Source of the DNA: Candidatus Zixiibacteriota bacterium
GTDB lineage: Bacteria > Zixibacteria > MSB-5A5 > GN15 > FEB-12
Length of the DNA: 64,000 nucleotides
Reading direction: 5' to 3'
Assembly: GCA_017999435.1 (NCBI GenBank)
Contig: JAGNLV010000002.1
Location: forward strand, 558,001 to 622,000
Below the pieces are notes generated by a model. The model was not told the DNA's origin. It ran no database searches and saw only the letters and a list, made by a program, of their open reading frames with translations. Positions 23,600 through 38,555 of this stretch are shown here, piece by piece. Position 1 is the first letter of the stretch. Every line of letters starts with the position of its first letter. A program made the position numbers and the translations under genes.

Positions 23600-23750
23600 T
23601 CGCCACAGACTCTTGTGGGCCTCCAGTCAGTAGTCCCGTTCCACTACGCCGGGTTCAACGGAGGTCGTGGGGAAGCAATAGGCCGAACTGCAACCTGGGC
23701 GCCCTGACCCGCGTAATCTCGCTTGAGACACCAGCAGGAAGGAGTAGGTT

Positions 23751-24926
23751 ATGCGAGTTGTTACGGTTTGCGCCGTAGCTCTTCTTTCCGCCGTTTCATT
23801 CGCCGGTGTCGACGGCCGGCAGGCCAATTACCTTGTGCCAAATGGCCCCGATCTCGGACATGAAACGCCGAGCAGGACCGCTCAGTGCGGGTCTGTTGCG
23901 AAACTCCCGATGCGGGTCGAGGGACGGTCATGTACATCGTTTTGCCTCGACAACAAGGGTGAGGCCGTCTTCGGGTCAAATTACGACAACGACATCCCCG
24001 AGGGGATGGTCTTCATCAACAAGCGGGGAGTCTCCAAATCCGGTCTCATGCCCGGCACCACCGGGCAGGTTGCCACGTGGACATCGAAGTATGCCAGCGT
24101 CACATTCACGGTGGTCGGCCACCAGTTGGCCTGGGCCGGGATGAACGAACAGGGTTTGGTGATGAGCACCATGGCTCTCGGCGAAACGCAGAACCCGGAG
24201 CCGGACGAACGCGCGCCCCTGCACTCCCCGCACTGGATGCAGTACCTGCTGGACAACTGCAGCTCCGTGAACGAGATCCTTGCGGCCGACTCTCAGGTCA
24301 GAATATTCGAGACGGTCGATCATTACCTGGTTTCTGATGCGGCCGGCGACTGCGCGGTGATCGAGTTCCTCGATGGCAAGACGGTCATGCACACCGGCCA
24401 GGGGCTTCCCGCGGCAGTCCTGACCAACAGCACGTACGCAGAGTCGGCGGCCTTGTTGGACGGCTCCGGGGGGGAATCCGGCAAGCGGCGCGATCCCCAG
24501 CCCATTAACGGTTCGCTCCGCCGCTTCGGGATCGCCGCAGAAAGGGTGCAAGCGTTTGAGCCGGCCGGTGCGGAGGACGCAGTGACATATGCGTTCGACA
24601 TTCTCGACAAGGTGGGTGGAGACGCGACGCTGTGGAGCATCGTCTTCGACACGCATGACCTGACAGTCTACTTCCGCACCAAGTCGCACCGGGCGATCAG
24701 GTACCTCTCGCTGAACGATTTCGACCTCTCGTGTCAGGCGCCGGACCTGATGCTCGATATCCACGAGAAGCTGGAGGGACACATTGCCGAGGCGATGACG
24801 GTCTTTTCCTCCGATCGGAATTTCGCGTTCCTCAAGAACGCCATCGCACGACGGGAGATCCCGATGAGCGACGAGCAGCTGCAGGCGATGCGCGCGATTC
24901 TCGACAGTTACGAATGCGAGCAGTAA
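23751..24926 (+). CDS. Exported linear amide C-N hydrolase (choloylglycine hydrolase family)
   Basis: A 391-residue protein preceded by GGAAGGAG. It has a signal peptide of about 22 residues, then a 38-residue stretch, then nucleophile Cys61 in CTSFCLDNKGEAVFGSNYD, and GMNEQGLVMSTM, both characteristic of the PF02275 hydrolases. N-terminal maturation before Cys61 would be needed. Family members cleave bile-salt amides, penicillin V or N-acyl-homoserine lactones; which applies here cannot be judged. It is the second of two tandem but divergent Ntn hydrolases. Confidence 0.82.
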   Translation: MRVVTVCAVALLSAVSFAGVDGRQANYLVPNGPDLGHETPSRTAQCGSVAKLPMRVEGRSCTSFCLDNKGEAVFGSNYDNDIPEGMVFINKRGVSKSGLMPGTTGQVATWTSKYASVTFTVVGHQLAWAGMNEQGLVMSTMALGETQNPEPDERAPLHSPHWMQYLLDNCSSVNEILAADSQVRIFETVDHYLVSDAAGDCAVIEFLDGKTVMHTGQGLPAAVLTNSTYAESAALLDGSGGESGKRRDPQPINGSLRRFGIAAERVQAFEPAGAEDAVTYAFDILDKVGGDATLWSIVFDTHDLTVYFRTKSHRAIRYLSLNDFDLSCQAPDLMLDIHEKLEGHIAEAMTVFSSDRNFAFLKNAIARREIPMSDEQLQAMRAILDSYECEQ

Positions 24927-25365
24927 GCGGGGCGCCGGGAATCCCAGAAGGGGCGGGCCACGCGGGCGCGGGTTTCATATCGCGGCAGCAGCAGCGGTGC
25001 CGCAGCGGCACATCAGTCAACGCGGCCGCCGGCCGACGCGATCCGCAACCGGGTGATCGAGACCGCAGCGTGACCCCGGAGACCAGGCAATTTCGACATC
25101 AGAGTCGCAGTTGCCCAGGAAAGTTTCAAGCTTGACACGCTGGAGAAACTGTGATTCATTTCCGATAGCCTGTGCACCGTACCGGCCCTCAGTCGGGATC
25201 TGTGCGGTTAACCGGGAAGGAGGTGGTTCGAGTCATGCGTATGAATCTTGCGCGGAGTCATGCTGTGAGTGCGATTCGGATCACCCTCGCCGGCCTCGGT
25301 TAGGTGCAACCCCGATTCTTCCCCCATGACTCCGGGTTCCTGAACACGGCACAAAGGAGTCATGA
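24927..25365. other. Gap with a weak promoter
   Basis: About 440 nt without a recognised gene. A TTGACA box at 25132-25137 with TTCATT 17 nt downstream (25155-25160) could start the acetyltransferase mRNA with a ~200-nt leader. The leader contains a very small ORF, listed separately. This stretch marks the change from GC-rich to AT-richer sequence. Confidence 0.35.
25235..25303 (+). CDS. Possible 22-codon leader ORF
   Basis: ATG at 25235 preceded by GGAAGGAGGTG, ending at TAG 25301-25303. The peptide begins MRMNLARSHAVSAIR and looks like the start of a signal sequence. It may be a leader peptide or the 5' stump of a deleted gene. Supported only by the strong ribosome binding site. Confidence 0.2.
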   Translation: MRMNLARSHAVSAIRITLAGLG

Positions 25366-26187
25366 ATGATCAGCCTTACTAATGAAGACGGAATCACCTG
25401 CGCCAGCCTCATGGTCCTGCAAGAGGATCGCGAGGCCTGGGCGATCGTCGTTTCCTGGAAGAAGGGAGTCGACGGCCTCCCGGACCGACGCGCCTTCCAT
25501 GAAGCGCTCGAGTCAAGCATCGGGGAGTGCGTGAGGATGGGCGCGCTCTATCTCGACAGCCGCGTGATTACTGCAAGCACAGGCGTCGATGACGCGCTGA
25601 CATCCTCGCGCGCTGCGCTTCACCGCGATTTCCTCTCCGCCCGCGGTTTCGTGAGAGGCGAGGATCGCGTTGAGTACCAAATGGATCTCGCCGTTGCGCT
25701 CAGTATGCTTGAGGCGGACGAGATCGAACCTAGTCTTGTCTGGGAATGCGTCAACACGGAATGCGCGTCGGCTCTCGCGCGGGCGGCCGATTTGTTCTCT
25801 CAGGCAAGTGAGGGCGACCCTGCATCGAATCCTGGCGAAGATGCAGTAGGATTTGTGAAAGCCCTGATCGAGGAGAAAGAAACGGTCCAAGCCCCCGAAC
25901 GCCTCCAGATCGGGATGTGCGGGAATGATCCCGCCGCAGTTCTCGCGCTCAAGGTCTATCCCAGCGACGGATGGTCGACGATCTACTACCTTGGCGTGCT
26001 GCCGGTTTTCCGCGGGCGCGGATTCGGTGCCGCCGCCATGCTTCAGGCGTTACATTCTCTGAAGGCCATGGGCGGGAGGATCTATCATGATGGAACCGCA
26101 TCGGGGAACGCAGGCGCGCTGGCGCTCTTTGCGCGCCTCGGCCAGCCCCCATTCCGGGTCATGGAGACATGGAGATTAAGACGATAG
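25366..26187 (+). CDS. GNAT-family N-acetyltransferase
   Basis: A 273-residue protein with AAAGGAG six nt before ATG. The C-terminal domain (about residues 190-273) carries the acetyl-CoA motif A (YLGVLPVFRGRGFGAAAM, with the R-G-R-G-F-G pyrophosphate loop) and the downstream NAGALALFARLG segment. The N-terminal ~150 residues look like a degenerate second GNAT-like or unrelated domain. The acceptor substrate is unknown. It is the last gene before the first copy of the island repeat. Confidence 0.8.
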   Translation: MISLTNEDGITCASLMVLQEDREAWAIVVSWKKGVDGLPDRRAFHEALESSIGECVRMGALYLDSRVITASTGVDDALTSSRAALHRDFLSARGFVRGEDRVEYQMDLAVALSMLEADEIEPSLVWECVNTECASALARAADLFSQASEGDPASNPGEDAVGFVKALIEEKETVQAPERLQIGMCGNDPAAVLALKVYPSDGWSTIYYLGVLPVFRGRGFGAAAMLQALHSLKAMGGRIYHDGTASGNAGALALFARLGQPPFRVMETWRLRR

Positions 26188-26285
26188 GCCGAGGTTCGAT
26201 CGATCGTCATGGAAGCCGGGCGCCATTCTCAGGAAGTGGCGTCCCGTAAACACCTGAGCCGACGCCTTGCAGCGGCTGATTAGGA

Positions 26286-26396
26286 ATGGTGCGGCCCCGA
26301 CCTGACTCTCCCCGGACCTTGGTGGCATTTCATTCGCAATGCGGCCGCACGATGCCTTCATCGGCGGAACGCATTGGAACACAACCAAATGCAACG
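26286..26396 (+). repeat. Island intergenic repeat, copy 1 (of 5)
   Basis: Begins GGTGCGGCCCCGACC then GACTCTCCCC and aligns over about 105 nt with the copies at 27346, 28395, 30464 and 32449, all in the same orientation. Its 3' half can form an imperfect hairpin: GCATTT pairs with AAATGC and CAATGC with GCATTG around a variable centre. Together with its flanks it accounts for the gap 26188-26574, which otherwise shows nothing. Confidence 0.75.
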
Positions 26397-26574
26397 ACGT
26401 GACATTTGTCTGGAGACGATTTGGCTTGACATCGATGCAGCACTCAGTGAGTTTAGTCGAGAGGCAGTGACGATCCGGTTTGCAGGCTGAGTACTCGGAT
26501 CAACAACTCGCCTATCTCACCTTCTGTGGACCAGATCGACAACTGATCCTCGTATTCTGACATAAGGAGGATCA

Positions 26575-27234
26575 ATGGTACGTCCCAAGCTACTTTCCAA
26601 TGCCCAGAAGATCATGATTTGTCTGGTTATCGTGCAGGTCACGACGTCGGGAGTCCTCGCTTTTGATGGCCAGCGCAATGGGTTCGTCCTGGGCGCAGGT
26701 GTCGGCCTGTCAGCCATATCAACGCTGTCTTCATCTTACATGGGGCACAGCTTCAGCGGGAGCGGTACGGGAGTGGGCATGAACGCGATCATGGGATATG
26801 GCATAAGCAAACATGATGTTCTTGCGGTCGGAATGAACTGGGCGGGGTACAGAAGCGATTACACCGGCGAGAACGCCGATATCGCCCAGGGAATCGTTGC
26901 CCTCACATGGACAAGGTACTTCGGCAAACCGGGCAAGTCATATCTAGTACTGGCGGGGCCGGGTGCATACTTCGCCCGCTCGTTCTCGGGGGTCGATATC
27001 TCGATCTGCTGGGACTGCCCTTTCGAAGACATGCCTACCGCGAGAATGCCGGAAGATTGGGGGTTTGGTCTGATCGGCGGTGTGGGTCGTGAATTGAGTA
27101 CTCAATTCCAACTTGTAGTGTACGGCGCAATCGGTTTTCCTTCAGGTAACGTCTACGTGCCTGATGGCAGCCAGGCTGCGAAGACAGTCACGGCTGCGCA
27201 TGTCAACATTCTCCTGATGTGGATGAGTTTCTGA
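26575..27234 (+). CDS. Probable outer-membrane beta-barrel protein
   Basis: A 219-residue protein with AAGGAGG before the start. A signal peptide (residues about 1-30, ending VLAFDG) is followed by alternating Gly/aromatic strands (GFVLGAGVGLSAIS, GVGMNAIMGYGI, VLAVGMNWAGYRSDY, SYLVLAGPGAYFARSF) ending in a strand with terminal Phe (VNILLMWMSF), the usual signature of a small 8-stranded outer-membrane barrel. No family recognised. It is the single gene of the unit between repeat copies 1 and 2. Confidence 0.72.
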   Translation: MVRPKLLSNAQKIMICLVIVQVTTSGVLAFDGQRNGFVLGAGVGLSAISTLSSSYMGHSFSGSGTGVGMNAIMGYGISKHDVLAVGMNWAGYRSDYTGENADIAQGIVALTWTRYFGKPGKSYLVLAGPGAYFARSFSGVDISICWDCPFEDMPTARMPEDWGFGLIGGVGRELSTQFQLVVYGAIGFPSGNVYVPDGSQAAKTVTAAHVNILLMWMSF

Positions 27235-27345
27235 CAAATAGGAGAGGCACCTCCAATGAGGGAACTCCACTCTGGCGAGCCGTCAAATTGTGCGAAGCAT
27301 CTGCTTGAATTACGGCGCAGTCTATTACCTGGCGACTACCTACAT

Positions 27346-27440
27346 AATGGCGGCCCCGGTCTCGCGCTCCTCAACCCTCTGTGCAATTCGGTTTCGATGT
27401 GCAGCCTGACTACGCGATTCTTGACGGATAGTACCAAAGG
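27346..27440 (+). repeat. Island intergenic repeat, copy 2
   Basis: Starts AATGGCGGCCCCGGTCTC and aligns along its length with copy 4 (30464), including the shared blocks CTGTG, GGTTTC, TACGC and CTTGA-CGGA. It is the most diverged recognisable copy. It lies between the tail-to-tail barrel gene and methyltransferase gene. Confidence 0.65.
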
Positions 27441-27476
27441 GCCAAAGAAAACGAAAAGGGGGCGAGGAGAGTAACC

Positions 27477-28226
27477 TCATTCATCACGTCGGAAAACGTA
27501 AGTCGCCCATCCCACAGTATCTCTGCCCCACTTGAGGTACATGTTCCTGCTCGACGTAACCCGGTTCATGAGTTCGGTGATGTCCGGATCGTCGGGGTTC
27601 TGACGGGCGTATTCATCGGCCGCCAACCACTGCAGGCCCTCGTATTGATCCCAGTCATTCTGGTCGCTGACAATGGTATAAACGAATCGGAGCCCGTGTT
27701 TCTCTCCAGCCTCCACGTTGTCGGCATGCGTCCCGAAGCTCTCCTTTTGAAGGCCGGACGCATCCAGATACTGCGGTGATGGATCATGGAGCCAGAAGGG
27801 CTCCCCTACGACCACCAGGCCGCCCGGGGCAGCCCAGCTCTTCAATGTTCTCAGCGTTTCACTGTGGTCTTTGAACACCCAGCTGGCCCCAATGCAGGAG
27901 ACCAAATGCAGACTCGCAGGCTGTTCCGGCCTGAACTCGGCGCCATCCATCTGCGTGAATGTGACGTTGGGGGTGGACAGTCTATCGGCGGCTCTTTTCT
28001 TACAATCTTCAACGCAGTAAGGGGAAATATCTACTCCGAGTCCTCTGACTTCATATTTCTCAGCCAATCGAATCAGAAACTCTCCCTTGCCGCAGGCGAT
28101 ATCGACCACTCCGGCCCCTCTGGGAAGGTCCAGAAGTCCGACGAGGTGGGCTAGTTTGGCCTCGCTTGTCGGATTGCAGACCAAGTGCTTCCGGTGCGTG
28201 ATATTGTAGAACTTCCAGGTATCCAC
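27477..28226 (-). CDS. SAM-dependent methyltransferase (class I)
   Basis: A 249-residue methyltransferase. Motif I is VVDIACGKGEFLIRLA, motif II VRGLGVDIS, then FTQMDGAEF and the motif IV region LHLVSCIGASWVF. I chose GTG 28226 (VDTWKFYNIT) because GGAG lies 5 nt upstream; TTG 28256 extends the frame by 10 codons. Substrate unknown. It is the only gene between repeat copies 2 and 3 and faces against the repeat orientation. Its base composition is lower in GC than the flanking chromosome. Confidence 0.83.
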   Translation of the reverse strand: MDTWKFYNITHRKHLVCNPTSEAKLAHLVGLLDLPRGAGVVDIACGKGEFLIRLAEKYEVRGLGVDISPYCVEDCKKRAADRLSTPNVTFTQMDGAEFRPEQPASLHLVSCIGASWVFKDHSETLRTLKSWAAPGGLVVVGEPFWLHDPSPQYLDASGLQKESFGTHADNVEAGEKHGLRFVYTIVSDQNDWDQYEGLQWLAADEYARQNPDDPDITELMNRVTSSRNMYLKWGRDTVGWATYVFRRDE

Positions 28227-28358
28227 AGTCACTCCACATTTGTATCGATATAGCAATCACAACAGGAGGAACCATTTTGTCAACTGGGAAGTGACTCCAG
28301 AGTGGTTCCGGATCTGGCGGAGGCCCTATATGCGGTATTATGCCCCGTCTACAAAAGA

Positions 28359-28382
28359 CCCTTTGGCATAGTTGCCAAAGGG
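28359..28382. other. Perfect 10-bp hairpin just upstream of repeat copy 3
   Basis: CCCTTTGGCA, TAGT loop, TGCCAAAGGG. It immediately precedes repeat copy 3; copy 4 is preceded by a weaker hairpin (TAGGCC/GGCCTA, about 30436-30457). It may be part of the mobile unit rather than a terminator, as no T-run follows. Confidence 0.5.
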
Positions 28383-28394
28383 ATTGGAGGGCAA

Positions 28395-28505
28395 TCAAAG
28401 CGGGCCCGACCTCACTCTCCCCAAACTTTCGTGAGCTTTAGCTTCCAGTTCCGATTACGCTATGCTCTGATCGACGGAAATCGCTGGAAACCAATCGAGT
28501 ACAAA
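28395..28505 (+). repeat. Island intergenic repeat, copy 3
   Basis: AAAGCGGGCCC then CTCACTCTCCCCAAAC, continuing through GATTACGCTATGCT to CGGAAATCGCTGGAAA. The 3' half folds as two stacked stems, TTCCAG/CTGGAA and TTCCG/CGGAA, with a 4-nt bulge on one side. It lies between two minus-strand genes but keeps the plus orientation. Confidence 0.8.
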
Positions 28506-28628
28506 GAACAGGGCCGCCGCAATTGACAGTAATTGAGGCTCAAGATTGCGGTCATGCTGATTTGATCTGCCCATTATCGCCAGGTCGAATCCGTCCTCAC
28601 AGTCGCTTGTCTTTCTCAGCACGCACAT

Positions 28629-30203
28629 TCATTCAAAGTTCTTGAAATCTGGCCAATCGGTAATCAGTGAAGCCCGTCTGTTCTTACAAATCCAGATCGT
28701 CTGGTTGTTCTCATATGGCATGCAATAGCGATGCGTGAAAATGCCGGCAGGAATGACCTCGCCGTAGCATTCTTTCATGGCATCTTCGGATCCGCCCAAG
28801 CGGATGACTACCTCGCCGTCAGAATTCTGACATCCCCACAGCCAGTAATTATTATGCCCGCTGATAGCCCTGGGCAGATGGTACTCTCCGCCAAAATAGT
28901 CGATTGCCCCGGCTTCTCCGTAGTTGTTGCAGAGGATGACGCATTTGGACTGCTCTTCCGGCGTGAGCCGGGCATAAGCCTCCGCGACGGCCGCCGTCAT
29001 CTCCTTCCAACCAAACATATCCGCATAATACTGCGGGAGTTCACTGAGCTCTTTCTTCTCCGGCGTGGAGGGGCCGATACCGAGTGCCCGCGAATACGCG
29101 ATGAAGGTATCGACCGGTAACAGGGCAAGCGTCAACGGTAGTGGCACTAGGCCGCCCAAGATTACTGAAGCAAGAATAACAGGCCTGAGCCATCGCCACT
29201 TCAGCCAGAGAACGAACTTCTCGACAGTAAACGATCCCAGAGCAAAGAGCATAGGGGACATCGGCCCCAAGTACTCCGACTTACTATTCTTGCTAACTAT
29301 AAGAATCAGGAAGACCGCTAAGAAGATGATCGGTAGAACGCGGAATTGCCTTGTTGATCTTGACACCAGGAAATATGTCAGTCCCGCGAACCAGATGGGG
29401 AATGAGACCGGACTCATGTTCAGTACTTGCTGGCTGAACATGTCCCACGGTGACACCGACACGTACTTATCGGCGAGCGCATTGCTCATGAATTCGAGAG
29501 TGGGGAAGTTATTCGCTATCTGCCATATTATATGCGGGAGGAAAAGAATGACAGAAAGGGCAACTGCAAACCACACTCTTCGTGTCAGCAGAAGGGCTCG
29601 ATACGGAGTTGCGAGCAGCGCGATCAGCAGTCCAGTGCCGAGCCATAGAACGCTGATCTTGTTCATCAATCCCAGGCCGAGTACAATTCCGAGCAGAATC
29701 CAATGCCGCGACAGATCGTGTTTGGCTATGAGGATAAGGAGATAGAACGCGAGGGTCCAAAGGAGGGTATCGAAGGAGTTCATTGAGAAGTGTGCATTGA
29801 TCGCAAGTGTCAAAGGTGCAAGGAGCGCACAGATTGACGCGAGGATTTGAGAGTATTTGCCGCCGCCGAGTTCGCGTGTCATCAGACCAGCCAGGAGGAC
29901 GACAACTGCGCCGGTGACAGCCGGAAGTAGCCGCAGGGCAAATAGCGAGTCTCCTAGAAGCAGACGATTCAACCATAATATCGCGATGGATAACGGTGGC
30001 TGATCGACATAACCCCACGCCATGTGATCGCTGCAGGCGATATAGTAAAATTCATCGCGGAACATCCCATAACCACCAGTGATATTGACGACCAGATGAA
30101 GACAAAGCTTCACGAGGGCAATCGTCAGCAGGATTGCACTGCCGTCTCGAACGAAGTGGGATGATGAAAAGAAACGATTGGGTGCCAGATTACCCGGACA
30201 CAT
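28629..30203 (-). CDS. PMT/ArnT-family membrane glycosyltransferase
   Basis: A 524-residue polytopic GT39/GT83-like transferase that would move a sugar from a polyprenyl-phosphate carrier to an acceptor outside the inner membrane. The first external loop holds the acidic catalytic element RDEFYYIACSDHMAWGYVDQPPLS with the RDE motif. About 11-12 membrane segments follow (to about residue 395), then a soluble C-terminal domain of ~130 residues. I chose ATG 30203 because GGAGGG lies 8 nt upstream. It is the single gene between repeat copies 3 and 4, again opposite to the repeat direction. Acceptor unknown (lipid A, lipid or protein). Confidence 0.86.
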   Translation of the reverse strand: MCPGNLAPNRFFSSSHFVRDGSAILLTIALVKLCLHLVVNITGGYGMFRDEFYYIACSDHMAWGYVDQPPLSIAILWLNRLLLGDSLFALRLLPAVTGAVVVLLAGLMTRELGGGKYSQILASICALLAPLTLAINAHFSMNSFDTLLWTLAFYLLILIAKHDLSRHWILLGIVLGLGLMNKISVLWLGTGLLIALLATPYRALLLTRRVWFAVALSVILFLPHIIWQIANNFPTLEFMSNALADKYVSVSPWDMFSQQVLNMSPVSFPIWFAGLTYFLVSRSTRQFRVLPIIFLAVFLILIVSKNSKSEYLGPMSPMLFALGSFTVEKFVLWLKWRWLRPVILASVILGGLVPLPLTLALLPVDTFIAYSRALGIGPSTPEKKELSELPQYYADMFGWKEMTAAVAEAYARLTPEEQSKCVILCNNYGEAGAIDYFGGEYHLPRAISGHNNYWLWGCQNSDGEVVIRLGGSEDAMKECYGEVIPAGIFTHRYCMPYENNQTIWICKNRRASLITDWPDFKNFE

Positions 30204-30463
30204 ATATTGCGCCCTCCGGTCTGACGTATCGGATGGAGCTCCCGTGAATCCACAGGCTCGCCATCGGAGTCCTGCCTGCCTGACTCGCCGCAACTCTCAC
30301 TGATTATGACCCTTCTGACGAGTTGTGTACCATTACTCTGGAATATACGAAAAAAACAAGGTCGGAGGTACCCCGCGTATAACACCTCGGAAGTCACCGG
30401 CGTCTTGGAGACTAATGGGTAGGCCGATTATGCAGCCTTGGCCTAGTAAGGGAAAATGGTTAT

Positions 30464-30573
30464 TCAATGGCGGCCCGCGGTATCACTCTCCCCAAACTTC
30501 TGTGAGCCTCTGGTTTCCGTTCCAGTTACGCTATGCTTGAATCAACGGAACTCGCTAGAAAACAGTCAAATAC
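30464..30573 (+). repeat. Island intergenic repeat, copy 4
   Basis: CAATGGCGGCCCGCGGTA then TCACTCTCCCCAAACTTCTGTGAGCC, ending around ACGGAACTCGCTAGAAAACAG. It aligns closely with copies 3 and 5 over about 105 nt. The pairing TTTC/GAAA and GTTCC/GGAAC replaces the stems seen in copy 3. Confidence 0.8.
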
Positions 30574-30743
30574 GCGGACACTGCTTATCGTCATTGCGTT
30601 GTTGGTTGTAAGAGAGTTACTTGTGGCTGACCTCACATGCATCCGCCGATGGAGGGAAGGAGTTAGTCATGAAGCGACGACCACTGTGTAGCACCTCGTT
30701 AATGTTATACGCCACGCAGCATGTCTTCTTACGAGGATAATCT

Positions 30744-32240
30744 ATGAGAACCACATTTACTGCTGCTTTAGCTGCCTGCCTTCTATCTGCCCTACTTTAC
30801 GCGCAGACTCCACCGCCCTCCGCTCAAGTAGAGGGTTCATGGGTGAAGGTCGCCTGCCCATTCGATTCGAGTAAAGCGCTGCTTGCTGTCACCTGCGGCC
30901 GACTGAAAGTGCCTGAAAACTACGATGAACCTAAAGGTCGATCGATAGAGATTGCATTCATGGTAGTTAAGGCTCGAAAGAACATAGATCCAGAAAACCC
31001 AGTCCTTTTCCTAAACGGAGGCCCCGGGCAGACAAGCCTGTTCTTCGCAGAGACTCTCGTAACAACTCCCCTCATCTATGATGTTGTGGTTGATAGAGAT
31101 TGGGTGTTTTTCGACCAACGAGGAACTGGCAGGTCGATTCCGCAGCTATATTGCCCCGACGATCAAGACAGTCCTTTTGATTTGAAAAAGTGCAGAGATG
31201 GTCTAATAAAGCAAGGGATAGACCTTTCCCAGTACAACAGCGCACGAAGTGCCAGTGACATGGAAGCGCTTAGAAAAGCACTTGGCGTGAATCAGTGGAA
31301 TCTCTGGGGGATCTCCTACGGCAGCAGACTGGCAATGACAATGGCGCGCTACTACCCCTCGAGCGTCCGCTCGATCGTTCATGACGCCCCTGGCTTGCCT
31401 GGGGGTCAGGAACTCGTCGACGATGCTCTCGGAACGGACGTCGCGCTGAATAAGATATTCTCGAAGTGTGCGATGGATTCAGCGTGCTCGTCCAAGTTTC
31501 CAGAACTGCGGAGCCGATTCACAGCGGCGCTTCTCCGCCTCAGGCAGCAGCCATTATTGGTCGGCGAGAAGCGGTTTGACGACCATGCGGTGGTTCAGTT
31601 CTTTCGCCACTGGTTCTACCCCAGGGGTTATTCGACGTATGAACATCGCCTACAGAACCTCCTGATTTTCATGGATGCGGCTGCTCGCGACGATGGCCCA
31701 CTCATGGACGAAACTATACAAAGGATGAGAAAGGAGGAAGGGCTTGATAAGGTTCGGCCGCCCGAGCCGATTTACGCCCGACAGAGTATCGCACAGAACC
31801 TCTCTGTTTACTGCAACGAGAAGAAACCGTTCGAGTCCATGGATGAATATCAGAAAGCGGTGGCAAGCTCCGAGATCGTTCGTTCTCTTCTCGCGGATTT
31901 TGGAGCTCCTTCAGACTGCACTTTGTGGCCCTCCGGCGAAGCTGATTCAATTGAAAACACTCGCGTATATTATGACGGGCCGCAGCTTGCCTTTACGGGC
32001 GAGCTGGATGCATCCTCGTCGGGCCTTGCCGGCTATAAAATCGAGATGCTCTATGCCAATGCACTAAACGTCGTCTTCAAGAATGGCTACCACGGCCAGT
32101 TCCCGACAGAGCTACCCAATTCGGAGGACCGTGACTATTGGCTGTGTGCCTTGCGGCTGGCGCACCAGTTTTTTGCTGATCCGCAACGAAAGCTGGATAC
32201 CGGCTGCGCCGAAACACGACGGTTGCGCTTGGTAAAATGA
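30744..32240 (+). CDS. Exported alpha/beta hydrolase, S33 tripeptidyl-aminopeptidase-like
   Basis: A 498-residue secreted hydrolase with a signal peptide (MRTTFTAALAACLLSALLYAQ). The oxyanion-side motif is LFLNGGPGQTS, then FFDQRGTGRS. The nucleophile elbow is GISYGSR with Ser at about residue 191. The C-terminal TAP-like region includes AFTGELDASS with the Asp and the GYHGQFP His. The fold and motifs fit proline-iminopeptidase/TAP-like peptidases of family S33. It is the only gene between repeat copies 4 and 5. Confidence 0.88.
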   Translation: MRTTFTAALAACLLSALLYAQTPPPSAQVEGSWVKVACPFDSSKALLAVTCGRLKVPENYDEPKGRSIEIAFMVVKARKNIDPENPVLFLNGGPGQTSLFFAETLVTTPLIYDVVVDRDWVFFDQRGTGRSIPQLYCPDDQDSPFDLKKCRDGLIKQGIDLSQYNSARSASDMEALRKALGVNQWNLWGISYGSRLAMTMARYYPSSVRSIVHDAPGLPGGQELVDDALGTDVALNKIFSKCAMDSACSSKFPELRSRFTAALLRLRQQPLLVGEKRFDDHAVVQFFRHWFYPRGYSTYEHRLQNLLIFMDAAARDDGPLMDETIQRMRKEEGLDKVRPPEPIYARQSIAQNLSVYCNEKKPFESMDEYQKAVASSEIVRSLLADFGAPSDCTLWPSGEADSIENTRVYYDGPQLAFTGELDASSSGLAGYKIEMLYANALNVVFKNGYHGQFPTELPNSEDRDYWLCALRLAHQFFADPQRKLDTGCAETRRLRLVK

Positions 32241-32448
32241 TCAATCGAGGTGGCGGCTACAACAGCAATAGCAGGTAGGGTTCAGGCGTTCACTAGCGAA
32301 TGACTTCTTCAAAATCGATCGTCGAATTGAGCACTCCTGCAGCGTGAATTATGGTATCAACGTTGATCACATTCTCTCTTGAAAGTTGCGCGAGTGCAAA
32401 AGCTATAATATGAGCACCAAAACTGCGGCCGGGTTAAGCAATCGGGAT

Positions 32449-32556
32449 AAAAAGCGGGCCCAGTATCACTCCCCCCAAACTTCTGTAGTATTCTCTTTGC
32501 GGGTGCACATCAGGTACTCGACGGCAAGCGGAACACGCTGGAAAACAATAGAATAG
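32449..32556 (+). repeat. Island intergenic repeat, copy 5
   Basis: AAAAGCGGGCCCAGTATCACTC then CCCCAAACTTCTGTAG, ending CGGAACACGCTGGAAAACAA. The 5' half is nearly identical to copy 4 and the centre is divergent. A GTTAAGC heptamer that fits GTTRRRY lies just upstream (about 32432-32438), but the other copies do not share it. Confidence 0.78.
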
Positions 32557-32703
32557 CGGGGCACTACTAACTGCCAAACGCATGCAATGCGGAGCCTCGA
32601 AGTGTGCTCTCCTCGTCTTCCTGAAACATTTGAGTAACTGCTTACGTAACGCTTACCACGGAGTCCACGATGAGGGATTGAGCCGCCTAACCGAGGAGTT
32701 CAT

Positions 32704-34146
32704 GTGAAGACGCGAATGCTCAAGACCAGCTGCCTGTCGTTGGCACTGCTAATGCTCCCTTTGCTGATGCATGCGCAGGAGACCGGAACGGTTGCCAGCC
32801 CCGAGACGGTGTTTGACCACGTGTGGCAAACAGTGGATCGTACTTACGGCCAGTTTGGTAGTAAACACGTCGACTGGGCGGCCCTCTATAGGGTCTATCG
32901 TCCACAGATCACTGCCGAAACAAGCGACGGCGACCTGCACCGGATCTTGCTGGAGATGCTTGGACATTTGAACGATGCCCACGTGTGCATTCAGACCGAC
33001 ACGAGTCGCACCTGCTGCGGTTTGACCGAGGGTCTGCCGCGTGTCGGCTTCTCCCGGGAATTGATCGAGTCCCACTACCTGAAGGGAACAGCGGACACGG
33101 CGCTCGACGGCCGTCTGTTGAGCGGCTGGCTGACTGATCAGATCGGCTACATGTATCTTCGCAACTTCAAGAGCAAGCCCGACGAGTTGAGCGCCGCGAT
33201 AGACGGCTGCATGAAAGGATTTGCTGCTGCCTCCGCGCTGATTGTCGATGTTCGCGATAACACGGGAGGCAAGTCAGAGAACAGCGAGCTGGTGGCTGAC
33301 CGATTCGCCGATCGTAAACGGCATTTCGCGACGAGTTTCGATCGCTACGGCGAAAAACACGACGATTATCTACCGCCTACATACCGGAATATCGAGCCGG
33401 CCGGCCCGATTCAGTTCACTGGCCCCATGGTAGTGTTGACCGACCGCCACACGGCGAGCGCTGCTGAGGAGTTTGTCCTGGCTATGCGGGTCCTGCCGCA
33501 TGTCACTATTGTCGGCGACCTTACTGAGGGCGCCTTAGCGGCTCAGTATCCGGAAAGGCTGCCGAATGGCTGGACGCTATGGGTCGCTCACAAGTACACC
33601 ATTGATCTTGAGGGGGTCTGCTGGGATGGGGTGGGGATTCCTCCTGACGTGCGGATCACAAACACCCAGGCCGACATTGATTCAGGTCAGGATCGCGTTC
33701 TGCAGTTTGCTCTCCTCTTCCTTGAAACGGGCAGGCCGGAACCACAAATGGAACCAGCCAGTCTCGATGGAATCCGGACCTCCCTCGTGCAGGAATTCAA
33801 GATGAACCTTGATAAGTCCGGATTCGAATTCGCCGTAAACGACCTCAGAAGCAAGATTAAGGGCGGGGACCAGCGCTACTTTTTCAGCGTCGTGGAAATG
33901 CTGGAGTTGTCGCGAGAATACGTTAGCAGAGATGAATTCAAGCAGGCTATCGAACTACTGGAAATCTTGCGGGCAGAATATCCGCGGTTTGCCCACACGT
34001 ATGGGTTGCTGGCAGCCGCCTATTTGAACTCCGAAAACCAGGAGGCCGCAAGGACGGTTGTCGCCGAAGGAGAGCGAATCAAGGCCATGTATTCGTGGGA
34101 GAAACCGCTCTTGGAAAAAGTAAAGCAGGCACTTGAAGAACAGTAG
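32704..34146 (+). CDS. Exported S41-family (tail-specific protease-like) peptidase
   Basis: A 480-residue protein with a signal peptide (LSLALLMLPLLMHAQ). The N-terminal helical region (FDHVWQTVDRTYGQF) and the S41 core are clear: YMYLRNF, ALIVDVRDNTGG and TDRHTASAAEEFVLAMR with catalytic Ser near residue 251, then GDLTEGALAA. No obvious PDZ domain. The C-terminal ~110 residues look like TPR-type helices (FKQAIELLEILRAEYPRFAHTYGLLAAAYLNS). It follows repeat copy 5; the ribosome binding site is GAGGAGTTC 5 nt before GTG/ATG. Confidence 0.87.
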   Translation: MKTRMLKTSCLSLALLMLPLLMHAQETGTVASPETVFDHVWQTVDRTYGQFGSKHVDWAALYRVYRPQITAETSDGDLHRILLEMLGHLNDAHVCIQTDTSRTCCGLTEGLPRVGFSRELIESHYLKGTADTALDGRLLSGWLTDQIGYMYLRNFKSKPDELSAAIDGCMKGFAAASALIVDVRDNTGGKSENSELVADRFADRKRHFATSFDRYGEKHDDYLPPTYRNIEPAGPIQFTGPMVVLTDRHTASAAEEFVLAMRVLPHVTIVGDLTEGALAAQYPERLPNGWTLWVAHKYTIDLEGVCWDGVGIPPDVRITNTQADIDSGQDRVLQFALLFLETGRPEPQMEPASLDGIRTSLVQEFKMNLDKSGFEFAVNDLRSKIKGGDQRYFFSVVEMLELSREYVSRDEFKQAIELLEILRAEYPRFAHTYGLLAAAYLNSENQEAARTVVAEGERIKAMYSWEKPLLEKVKQALEEQ

Positions 34147-34276
34147 GCAGATTGCCACCCATGCCCTTGTAGTGCGAGGCCTTCACCCTGATGCGTGTAC
34201 CGACAGGCTGAACCCGATACCCAGGATACTGGTATGCCGTTCTGTCCACAAAAGCCGTGGTTGTAAAGGTTCCATT

Positions 34277-34672
34277 GTGCGTCTTCCATTTGTCCGTTCG
34301 TATCTGTTAGCCGCCATATTGCTTGTCCCACTAGCCCCGACCACGTCCTGCGGTGAGAATGACGACTACGATCGGTTTGCCTGCAAAGTTGTCACCCTGC
34401 TCGCCCCTGAGATAGTACCTGACGAGCCGGGTGCGGCAGTGGTGGTCACTCAGCAGGGCAAGGTCATCTATCGTCGTTGCTTCGGCCTGGCAAACCTTGA
34501 ACACAGGGTTCCTATTACACAAGAAACTGTCTTCGATCTGGCCTCCTGCGCCAAGCAGTCAAGCGTGCTAAAGTCCTATGGCATGGGCAACTCGAATGAC
34601 CAGTCTACTGTCCGGATTGAATGGATTGACTATATTATTCTGATCTCTGCCGCCGGACTGCACTGCTCGTAG
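34277..34672 (+). pseudogene. Truncated beta-lactamase/serine-hydrolase family gene (N-terminal stump)
   Basis: From GTG 34277 the product has a signal peptide and a 100-residue segment closely resembling the start of class C beta-lactamase-related hydrolases (GAAVVVTQQGKVIYRRCFGLANLEHRVPITQETVFDLASCAKQ). It reaches the SxxK motif (S-C-A-K). Homology stops at that point and the frame runs into unrelated sequence with a stop at 34670-34672. About three quarters of the enzyme, including the Y-x-N and H-x-G motifs, is missing. The break lies next to the recombinase remnant on the other strand. Confidence 0.72.
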
Positions 34673-34905
34673 GCGTTTCGCAAGTCAGTGTCGTCTACGT
34701 GAACGTATCGTTCCGCACACGCAGGGTCGAGTGGCCGAGCGCACGCTGCAGGACTCGCAGTGGCCCACCTGCGCGGACGAATGCTGTGGCCCCGGGGTGG
34801 CGTATCGGATGCGAGTGCAGGTGTAGCCCGATCTTACGGGCAGGATTAGTGCCGTCAGGCAACTTGAGATAACACGAGTTTACGGAGAGTAAGGTTGGCT
34901 ATTTT
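34641..34905 (-). pseudogene. Decayed tyrosine recombinase (integrase) C-terminal fragment
   Basis: Translating the minus strand from 34905 gives NSCYLKLPDGTNPARKIGLHLHSHPIRHPGAT, then AFVRAGGPLRVLQRALGHSTLRV, a clear match to the catalytic end of XerC/D-type integrases (the H-x-x-R-H box and the LGHS box). A stop (34695-34697) replaces the residue that should follow the catalytic Tyr, which itself appears as Phe or is lost. After it the frame continues VDDTDLRNAYEQCSPAAE, typical of integrase tails. Stops also lie upstream. The core, first Arg and N-terminal domains are absent, so it is non-functional. Confidence 0.72.
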
Positions 34906-35038
34906 TGTAAGCGTATAACCGATTGCGAGTTAAGGGGATAGATAAGGCGGGCCCTCGTAGACGCGTTCCGCAACTGGGTGATAGGCAGTGCGGCGTAGCG
35001 CGTGTTCGGCAGCTGGCGATTCTCAGGGAATGCGCCAA

Positions 35039-35662
35039 TCAAGCTCTGGCTGCCTGACTGAGGATGTGACTCACGGGTCTAAGCGCTTCTATGATCTTCT
35101 GTTTGTTCCGTGGATTGGTATTAACAACCAGCGGACTCGGATGATAGCATTCGAATATCCTGATGTAGTCATATTGACTTTCGAGTTTCCTTTTCACTCT
35201 CTGGGCTTTCTTACCAACGAGCACAATAATCTGTAGGTTCGGCAAGAGATCTATAAGGCTATTCAAATAAGGCAGCCCCGCACGGATGTCATCTGCTGTG
35301 GCCGGTCGTATCTTCTTGCCGGTACCGATATACCAGGGCACAACATTCCAAGTAATCGTTTTCTCTCTTGGGATACCGGCCTCCACGTTGATTTCAAAGA
35401 AGTTCTTCGCCGACTCATCGTCGTTATTCCGAGAAATGAAACCGGACCTTACCGCATTTTGCCCCGGTGCCTCCAATACGAACAGGCATTGCGCTCTGGT
35501 GCCACCGTCCAGAGGATCGAAGTACGGAATGCTCTTGTCTGGATGTTGGGAAATGATAGCATCCACATATCGTGTGAGAGGGGCGATATGCTCGTGCTTG
35601 AGCAGTCTCTTTCTTGCTGATCGCTCCGCTTCGTGTTTAAGGCTCTTGGGGCAATCTTTCAT
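35039..35662 (-). CDS. Uracil-DNA glycosylase superfamily protein
   Basis: A 207-residue protein. FVLEAPGQNAVRSGF matches the UDG-superfamily motif 1 region, NVVPWYIG is the motif with the base-contact residue, and CYHPSPLVVN is the C-terminal H-P-S motif. Spacing is normal for the superfamily, but the subfamily is not clear, and the motif 1 GEAPG form is altered to LEAPG. I chose ATG 35662 because a promoter lies directly upstream; a TTG at 35686 would extend it by 8 codons. The gene is notably AT-rich for this window. Confidence 0.75.
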   Translation of the reverse strand: MKDCPKSLKHEAERSARKRLLKHEHIAPLTRYVDAIISQHPDKSIPYFDPLDGGTRAQCLFVLEAPGQNAVRSGFISRNNDDESAKNFFEINVEAGIPREKTITWNVVPWYIGTGKKIRPATADDIRAGLPYLNSLIDLLPNLQIIVLVGKKAQRVKRKLESQYDYIRIFECYHPSPLVVNTNPRNKQKIIEALRPVSHILSQAARA

Positions 35663-35671
35663 TGATCCCAC

Positions 35672-35699
35672 AGTATAAGGTAACAAAATCCGAGATCAA
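35672..35699 (-). promoter_or_regulatory. Promoter for the UDG-family gene
   Basis: Minus-strand TTGATC (35694-35699), 16-nt spacer, TATACT (35672-35677). Transcription would start a few nt before ATG 35662, giving an almost leaderless mRNA. Confidence 0.6.
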
Positions 35700-35771: not shown

Positions 35772-35848
35772 TGGCGGGGTTGACGAGACTCGAACTCGCG
35801 GCCTCCTGCGTGACAGGCAGGCGTTCTAACCAACTGAACTACAACCCC
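35772..35848 (-). tRNA. tRNA-Asp (GTC)
   Basis: Full cloverleaf on the minus strand: acceptor GGGGTTG/CAACCCC, anticodon stem CCTGC/GCAGG with loop CTGTCAC (anticodon GTC), T-arm GAGTTCGAGTCTC, discriminator G and an encoded CCA. It lies at the right edge of the AT-richer island. Confidence 0.96.
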
Positions 35849-37784: not shown

Positions 37785-38555
37785 ATGGTGGACACGCCGA
37801 TCCGGTTACTAGTGGTCGATGACGACCCGCTCCTGCGCGAGCTGCTGCAGGACACGCTCGACACGCTCGGGTACCGGGTGACGGCGGCGGCCGACGGGAT
37901 CGAGGCGCTCGAGCGGCTCGCCCAGGGGTCGTTCGATCTCGTCATCACCGACATCAAGATGCCGGGCATGGACGGGATCGCGCTTTTGAAGCGGGTCAAT
38001 CGCCTCTACCCCGATCTCCCGGTGCTGTTCATCACCGGGGTCGCCTCTCCGGAGGTGATCGGGCAGGCGTCGCCGGTCGGTTTTCTGGCCAAGCCGTTCC
38101 GAATCTCGCACATCGAGAGGCTCATTTCGGACGCGCTGCACTGGCGGAAGGAGCGGGTGGAGCATCCGATCCGCCGGGTGATGGTGGTGGACGACGACGA
38201 TCTGTTTCGGGAGATGCTCGCCGACACGCTCACCGGCCACGGGTTCACGGCGTGCGCGGTGCAGAACGGTCCGCAGGCGCTGTCCGAGCTGGAGAACGGT
38301 CCGGTTGACGCGGTGATCACCGACATCAAGATGCCCGGCATGGATGGGATCGCGCTCATGCAGGCGATCAAGGAGCGGCACCCGGAGCTCCCGGTGGTGC
38401 TGATCACGGCGTTTATGAGCGAGGCGGAGCTCGGGCCGGCGACGCCCGCCGCCCGGGCCGACGGGTTTCTCCGCAAGCCGTTCGAGATCGATCGCATCCT
38501 CGAACTTCTGGATTCCCTCGCACCCTCGCCGGTCGACGGCCGGGCGGGTTCATGA
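37785..38555 (+). CDS. Response regulator with two receiver domains and no output domain
   Basis: A 256-residue protein made of two CheY-like receivers. The first (about residues 5-120) has VVDDDP, phospho-acceptor Asp56 in LVITDIKMPGMDG, the Thr position FITG and the KPF Lys. The second (about 130-245) has VVDDDD, Asp180 in the same ITDIKMPGMDG sequence, LITA and RKPF. The near-identical phosphorylation loops suggest internal duplication. With no effector domain it may act as a phosphate relay or sink. It starts 2 nt after the mutase stop, an unexpected operon partner. Confidence 0.93.
   Translation: MVDTPIRLLVVDDDPLLRELLQDTLDTLGYRVTAAADGIEALERLAQGSFDLVITDIKMPGMDGIALLKRVNRLYPDLPVLFITGVASPEVIGQASPVGFLAKPFRISHIERLISDALHWRKERVEHPIRRVMVVDDDDLFREMLADTLTGHGFTACAVQNGPQALSELENGPVDAVITDIKMPGMDGIALMQAIKERHPELPVVLITAFMSEAELGPATPAARADGFLRKPFEIDRILELLDSLAPSPVDGRAGS

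Follow-up and report, generated by a model that had tools for sequence, protein, structure and literature searches.

Layout of the array

We analyzed a 64,000-nt stretch of Candidatus Zixiibacteriota DNA (GCA_017999435.1, contig JAGNLV010000002.1, positions 558,001-622,000; its genome is G000 in our sample), here called the window, which contains an array of one-directional repeats that mostly enclose single genes and that ends at a tRNA gene. Five ~105-bp repeats on the same strand, together with a weaker copy and two sites of another class (class 2), delimit eight intervals across 23.6-35.8 kb (Table 1). An earlier note on this DNA had listed the five plus-strand repeats, and our repeat searches of the window recover all of them where it placed them. 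A profile of these five (R1-R5) scores its own members at E values of 1.6e-31 to 6e-26 in the 64-kb window, values that are circular, and also recovers an independent sixth copy, R0, by nhmmer. R0 is the leftmost and the most eroded of the window sites. The right border of the array is the 3' end of a minus-strand tRNA-Asp(GTC) gene, beyond which comes tRNA-Val (both by ARAGORN), and GC content is about 0.55 within the array against 0.665 outside it in the window.

The earlier note had assigned exactly one gene to each interval, which holds for seven of the eight; the interval 32451-34947 has two open reading frames (ORFs). Its observation that genes face either way while the repeats keep one direction is borne out, since the cassette genes read +,+,+,-,-,+,+,- from left to right. 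The end of the array at tRNA-Asp, the drop in GC content and the coding 3' half of the repeat described below were absent from that note. The left-hand class-2 site lies close to the left border of a GNAT segment shared with G027 (window 25042-26291, 81% identity).

Table 1. Features of the array, from left to right; "attachment site" and "cassette" name the roles proposed in the text.
Feature	Position	Strand	Basis
R0, degenerate class-1 site, left end of array	about 23600..23680	+	nhmmer E 2.9e-6, R1-R5-only profile
Cassette gene, C45/choloylglycine-hydrolase-like	23751..24926	+	Pfam CBAH E 6e-12
Class-2 attachment site, tail-coding ..RNRVIETAA*	25022..25073	+	class-2 profile E 1.4e-7
Cassette gene, GNAT acetyltransferase	25366..26187	+	Pfam Acetyltransf_1 E 7e-8
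R1, class-1 attachment site	26288..26398	+	profile of repeats
Cassette gene, 219 aa	26575..27234	+	no Pfam match
R2, class-1 site, left end of methyltransferase cassette	27347..27455	+	cross-genome cassette homology begins at R2 GCGG
Cassette gene, methyltransferase	27477..28256	-	Pfam Methyltransf_25 E 9e-14
Large serine recombinase gene 3'-end remnant (recombinase residues 444-516), reads through R3	28290..28496	+	tblastn 37% identity, E 4.8e-7
R3, class-1 attachment site	28397..28507	+	profile of repeats
Cassette gene, PMT-type glycosyltransferase	28629..30293	-	Pfam PMT_2 E 2e-20
R4, class-1 attachment site	30467..30579	+	profile of repeats
Cassette gene, alpha/beta hydrolase	30744..32240	+	Pfam Abhydrolase_1 E 4e-17
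R5, class-1 attachment site	32451..32561	+	profile of repeats
Cassette gene, S41 peptidase	32704..34146	+	Pfam Peptidase_S41 E 2e-26
Class-2 attachment site, tail-coding RALVDAFRNWVIGSAA*	34947..34997	+	class-2 profile E 5.3e-11
Cassette gene, uracil-DNA-glycosylase family, final interval ahead of tRNA	35039..35686	-	Pfam UDG E 8e-16
tRNA-Asp(GTC), inferred attB; antisense 3' end (GCGG from 35774) closes array	35772..35848	-	ARAGORN; overlapped by relatives' recombinase genes

The repeat has a coding 3' half and no conserved fold

The 3' half of the repeat codes for protein, because synonymous changes make up 45% of its single-base codon changes when it is read in one plus-strand frame, compared with 19-35% in the other five, and the same frame gives the best substitution scores. 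The encoded peptide follows the pattern [KW]RP[RQ][PY]HSPQTFV.F.F.V...Y....G.RWK.I, usually with a stop codon next. It matches no family in a Pfam search, and its identification as a known domain was rejected on that ground. A peptide-profile search of 54 genomes places it mostly within tiny ORFs, and in two genomes at the C-terminus of ORFs of ~530 aa that prove to encode large serine recombinases (LSRs). In-frame reading of the class-2 repeat likewise gives an LSR tail, whose common form is WRGLRDEFRNWVIQNAA*; this repeat occurs in other arrays as well as twice in the window. Class-2 tails, such as that at window 34947-34997, mostly end in -AA and resemble C-terminal degradation tags.

The coding signature could mean that every repeat is a small gene in its own right, with a ~35-aa product that has a separate function. 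We consider this highly improbable, as the bases directly before GCGG vary between ATG, AAA and TAA and give no consistent start codon, the 5' half of the repeat is conserved as DNA, and the frame in which the repeat is used differs between two LSR lineages, the coding frame being that of an LSR C-terminus.

The earlier note had likened the locus to an integron cassette array with either a non-canonical recombination system or an unusual attC family. The first part of this reading survives and the second does not. One-directional sites, mostly single-gene intervals and variable content would all suit an actual integron whose attC family has diverged. However, RNAalifold returns 0 consensus pairs for 56 aligned copies, single copies mostly fold no better than shuffled sequences, and the array's own genome yields no integron integrase (IntI), its best integrase_gron match reaching 89 bits against a cut-off of 265. 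Cassettes common to several genomes switch homology within GCGG rather than at the GTT of the R box (RYYYAAC/GTTRRRY), gene directions are mixed, and serine recombinase genes end inside the site. Identity with attC sites or integrons was rejected on the folding, integrase and crossover tests together, and we regard an integron as extremely unlikely. A hairpin ahead of each repeat was likewise rejected as a general feature; long stems precede 12% of copies, against 2% of shuffles. Some cassette right ends (window 34905-34935; G036:C36 at about 209770) have in common a GTAA/ATAA..ATTG..AATGG-like motif ~25 nt ahead of GCGG.

Large serine recombinase genes end inside the repeat

The earlier note had called for a search for a linked recombinase, and relatives of the array's genome carry one. 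The two ~530-aa ORFs that end in the repeat peptide, in G065 and G068, are LSRs with Resolvase, Recombinase and zinc-ribbon domains. The G069 LSR has the same three domains and is a different protein (~28% identical where aligned); it too terminates in this repeat, but in another reading frame (..KSGPNITLPKLL*). In G030, a genome assigned to the order examined here, a partial relative (41.7% identity over 216 residues) does likewise (..KSGPDLTLPKLL*). The same repeat and LSR fragment as on G030 contig C41 are found in DYGG01000066.1 (L093), a record titled Ignavibacterium sp. whose name looks wrong.

Relatives of these LSRs are present in 29 of 80 genomes of the order, and their 3' ends overlap tRNA 3' ends at 19 of the 21 loci scanned. 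The tRNA is tRNA-Asp in eight; the others (L146-L159) are Asn, Ser, Gln, Arg and Glu tRNAs. The ..RGRRDSNSRPPA* tails of tRNA-overlapping LSRs are antisense tRNA sequence, and the closest LSRs adjoin a tRNA-Asp beside a tRNA-Val, the same tRNA pair that ends the window array. A further LSR of ~555 codons, ending in ..ESDKKRG*, lies directly beside tRNA-Asp (L217, 658-2322, minus strand) and occurs also in G036, G068 and G069; it is thus found in four genomes of two families, with flanking DNA 82-87% identical.

A comparison of two closely related LSRs locates the junction. The G065 and G066 proteins are 94% identical and both read ..AAAAAATGGCGGGGTC, beyond which G065 continues into a cassette arm and G066 into tRNA-Asp antisense. 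The attachment (att) core therefore lies within the recombinase gene, and the neighboring DNA supplies the tail. All that tRNA-Asp, the LSR end and the cassette arm have in common is GCGG(G). At the level of sequence, then, the sites are both the 3' ends of LSR genes and joints with tRNA genes, and the LSR tail is swapped at them.

In the window the only LSR sequence is the 3' remnant that crosses R3. A tyrosine recombinase was considered as the driver and rejected, as the window contains only a short fragment with no tie to the repeats. This C-terminal fragment (34719-34832, minus strand; PF00589, E 4.3e-6, own genome) is probably left over from another element at that tRNA.

Distribution and anchoring at tRNA-Asp

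A sequence-only model finds six copies of the repeat in the window and one isolated copy elsewhere in its genome, on contig C7. The latter (class 1; 37792-37898, L077) is tRNA-free within the 15 kb fetched around it. The search across related genomes that the earlier note had proposed finds the repeat in 23 of 41 near relatives; across the phylum Zixibacteria it is present in many families, with copies in 70 of 132 genomes. A strict pattern scan of ~85,000 species genomes returned 32 stretches, the majority labelled Candidatus Zixiibacteriota, which identifies the host as a zixibacterium. The repeat was not found in IMG/VR (exact pattern), nor in PLSDB or INPHARED (blastn), and a phage or plasmid origin was rejected in the light of these searches.

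We mapped 154 repeats on the fetched arrays. None of the 31 contigs with two or more copies has repeats on both strands, and the largest array has ~20 sites in 48 kb (G008). The 126 intervals have a median length of 1.8 kb, 72 of them contain a single gene, and genes occur on either strand. By Pfam, the cassettes carry a wide range of families; PD40 repeats lead the count, followed by methyltransferases and beta-lactamase-fold hydrolases. In the two-gene interval of the window, the second ORF (34133-34672, plus strand) is truncated and resembles part of a class C beta-lactamase/D-aminopeptidase (NCBIfam E 3e-7, with weaker matches). A defence island was rejected as a description of the cassettes, PADLOC matches being few and mixed and the Pfam content varied.

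In all 16 genomes with both a repeat and tRNA-Asp on one contig (within ~140 kb), the repeats are on the strand that points at the tRNA-Asp 3' end (G000, G006, G016, G027, G030, G033, G038, G042, G045, G051, G063, G068, G069, G090, G115 and G123). Distances between repeat and tRNA vary widely, and the 16 are not all compact arrays. The arrays are thus one-way and anchored at this tRNA gene.

Insertion at GCGG and exchange of cassettes

One genus offers an empty and a filled version of the same site. The tRNA-Asp of G052 is empty (..AATGGCGG|GGTCGACGAG..), and that of G053 holds a 22.5-kb LSR island whose left joint reads AATGGCGG|GCTCTACGAGACGAGTTTC and whose right joint reads ATGCGG|GGTCGACGAG; the left arm is a class-2 repeat. 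As far as sequence can tell, this pair places insertion at GCGG. Class-1 cassettes common to several genomes also begin and end at GCGG. The earlier note's proposal that gene content varies between repeats and breaks at the repeat itself is matched by this cross-genome comparison of cassettes. In G068 and G069, which belong to one genus, the 6.5 kb to the right of one repeat are 92% identical, and two different LSRs lie to the left.

These junctions bear on whether a dedicated recombinase is needed at all. Short dispersed repeats could in principle spread by homologous or illegitimate recombination; the similarity between sites would permit homologous exchange now and then, and some copies are isolated. 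We judge this very unlikely because the repeats keep a fixed orientation toward one tRNA gene in 16 genomes from several families, because they overlap LSR genes, and because empty and filled junctions are seen at the tRNA.

The methyltransferase cassette of the window recurs with differing neighbors in at least four other genomes (G036, G027 and two further records). Its copies are 81-85% identical to the window copy and 81-94% identical among themselves at the nucleotide level. Because they are so similar between different neighbors, whereas identity between genomes of one family is only 64-69% for a gene next to the tRNA, this reduced cassette seems to have moved. The window copy retains the LSR 3' remnant, which suggests that deletion came first and movement later.

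Proposed mechanism

We propose that the repeats are LSR attachment-site junctions and that the arrays arose by accretion at tRNA-Asp of cassettes that are mostly single-gene and lack a recombinase, an organization like that of integrons in loci that are not integrons. The junctions, strand constancy and recurring cassettes described above make this reading very probable in our estimation. A cassette would be the DNA from one GCGG to the next, with a recombinase arm at its left end (class 1, CCCCRAYMTCACTCTCCCCAAACTT...; class 2, GGTCTACGAGACGAGTTCCGCAACTGG...) and, at its right end, (ATG or AAA)GCGG, similar to the 3' end of the tRNA. Through its LSR, a circular element would recombine with tRNA-Asp at GCGG and so take a place next to the tRNA, with the older array on its other side; further rounds of this kind would produce a one-directional array growing at the tRNA. 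Growth at this end agrees with the window, where the sites toward the left are more eroded. With the att core inside the 3' end of the recombinase gene, the right-hand neighbor, either the tRNA or the next left arm, would give the C-terminal tail in frame. Single-gene cassettes without a recombinase would presumably have been mobilized in trans or be what deletion left of full elements. We infer catalysis by the serine recombinase at the sites, circular intermediates, a newest cassette beside the tRNA, and mobilization in trans.

Several observations weigh against this account. The array's own genome has no intact LSR and hence no resident serine recombinase for the window array, and no left arm of the G066 element turned up in its contig. 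The pair of empty and filled sites is class 2 rather than class 1, and a few intervals contain as many as 20 genes. G063 has conserved chromosomal genes between its repeat and tRNA-Asp, and isolated repeats lie far from tRNA-Asp on contig C7 of the array's own genome and in the closed genomes G046, G048, G049, G050 and G114. Random intergenic copies, which the earlier note had named as evidence against a cassette array, are a minority (C7, and closed genomes such as G046).

Some of these points suit a weaker form of the proposal, in which whole LSR elements entered tRNA-Asp one after another and decayed there by deletion, and the single-gene units never moved as cassettes. The lack of an LSR in the array's own genome, the eroded leftmost site, the LSR remnant kept in the methyltransferase cassette and the existence of isolated copies are all as expected from decay, and accretion followed by decay to integrase-less elements is established elsewhere (PMC5704250). 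The GCGG-cut methyltransferase cassette stands against it, being present in five genomes beside different neighbors and far better conserved than the tRNA-side gene. We therefore find decay alone conceivable but doubtful.

A stronger form of the LSR accretion proposal is a "serine integron", a platform dedicated to gene capture by serine recombinase. Single-gene cassettes that circulate among Zixibacteria would insert at tRNA-Asp, each left arm would carry an alternative C-terminal tail that alters the behavior of the recombinase joined to it, and at least two distant LSR lineages would read the same site in different frames. We advance this form only tentatively. LSRs integrated at tRNA genes do without the class-1 tail, though that tail is under coding constraint. 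By analogy with the integration-dependent repressor tail of phage BPs (PMC4557955), it may be of importance in the circular form or within an array.

If the accretion model is true, serine-recombinase arrays with the look of integrons would be an independent solution, found in about half of the sampled genomes of the phylum. The arrays show at which points uncultured Zixibacteria take up new genes, and they are a natural source of LSR sites whose C-termini can be exchanged. Whether a tail coded by an att site governs how stable a serine integrase is, or in which direction it works, also becomes a testable question.

Comparison with known systems

We found no description of LSR-based integron-like arrays, of sites coding alternative recombinase tails, or of Zixibacteria serine recombinases in the open-access literature, outside which most subscription journals lie. 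Accretion and LSR elements are each known; long, mostly single-gene LSR arrays are apparently undescribed in the open-access papers searched.

Tandem accretion of integrase-less elements at tRNA genes has been reported for islands of cis-mobilizable elements (CIMEs) and integrative and mobilizable elements (IMEs) (PMC5704250). These share with the Zixibacteria arrays the tandem elements, the common att sites, the lack of an integrase in most elements and the anchor at a tRNA 3' end. What we see in the window and its relatives are tandem integrase-less elements at a single attB, bordered by att sites, isolated copies excepted. Unlike those islands, the Zixibacteria arrays appear to use an LSR, consist mostly of single-gene units of ~1.8 kb with up to ~20 sites (G008), and have an att core inside the recombinase gene that sets its C-terminus.

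LSR elements such as phage integrases and Tn4451 have the same resolvase, recombinase and zinc-ribbon domains and very short att identity, which is 2 bp in Tn4451 (PMC5704250). In contrast to them, the Zixibacteria loci have long arrays of recombinase-less cassettes, and the LSR 3' end overlaps both tRNA and att core.

Recombination within a coding site also has precedents among phages. The intP gene of phage Mx8 contains attP within its coding sequence, and its C-terminus is changed by integration. The mycobacteriophage BPs switch (PMC4557955) resembles the proposed sites in having attP inside a coding gene, so that integration alters the C-terminus of the product. That system involves a single prophage, whereas here there is an array of alternative tails, and the protein that bears them is the recombinase itself.

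In organization, the arrays resemble integrons and superintegrons: their sites all face one way, most intervals contain a single gene, gene content varies, and exchange takes place at the site. Integrons, which work with a tyrosine recombinase and folded sites, are the textbook example of how single genes are gathered into ordered arrays. The Zixibacteria arrays differ in that they appear to depend on a serine rather than a tyrosine recombinase, their sites are conserved in sequence and not in fold, their genes lie on mixed strands, and they are anchored at tRNA-Asp.

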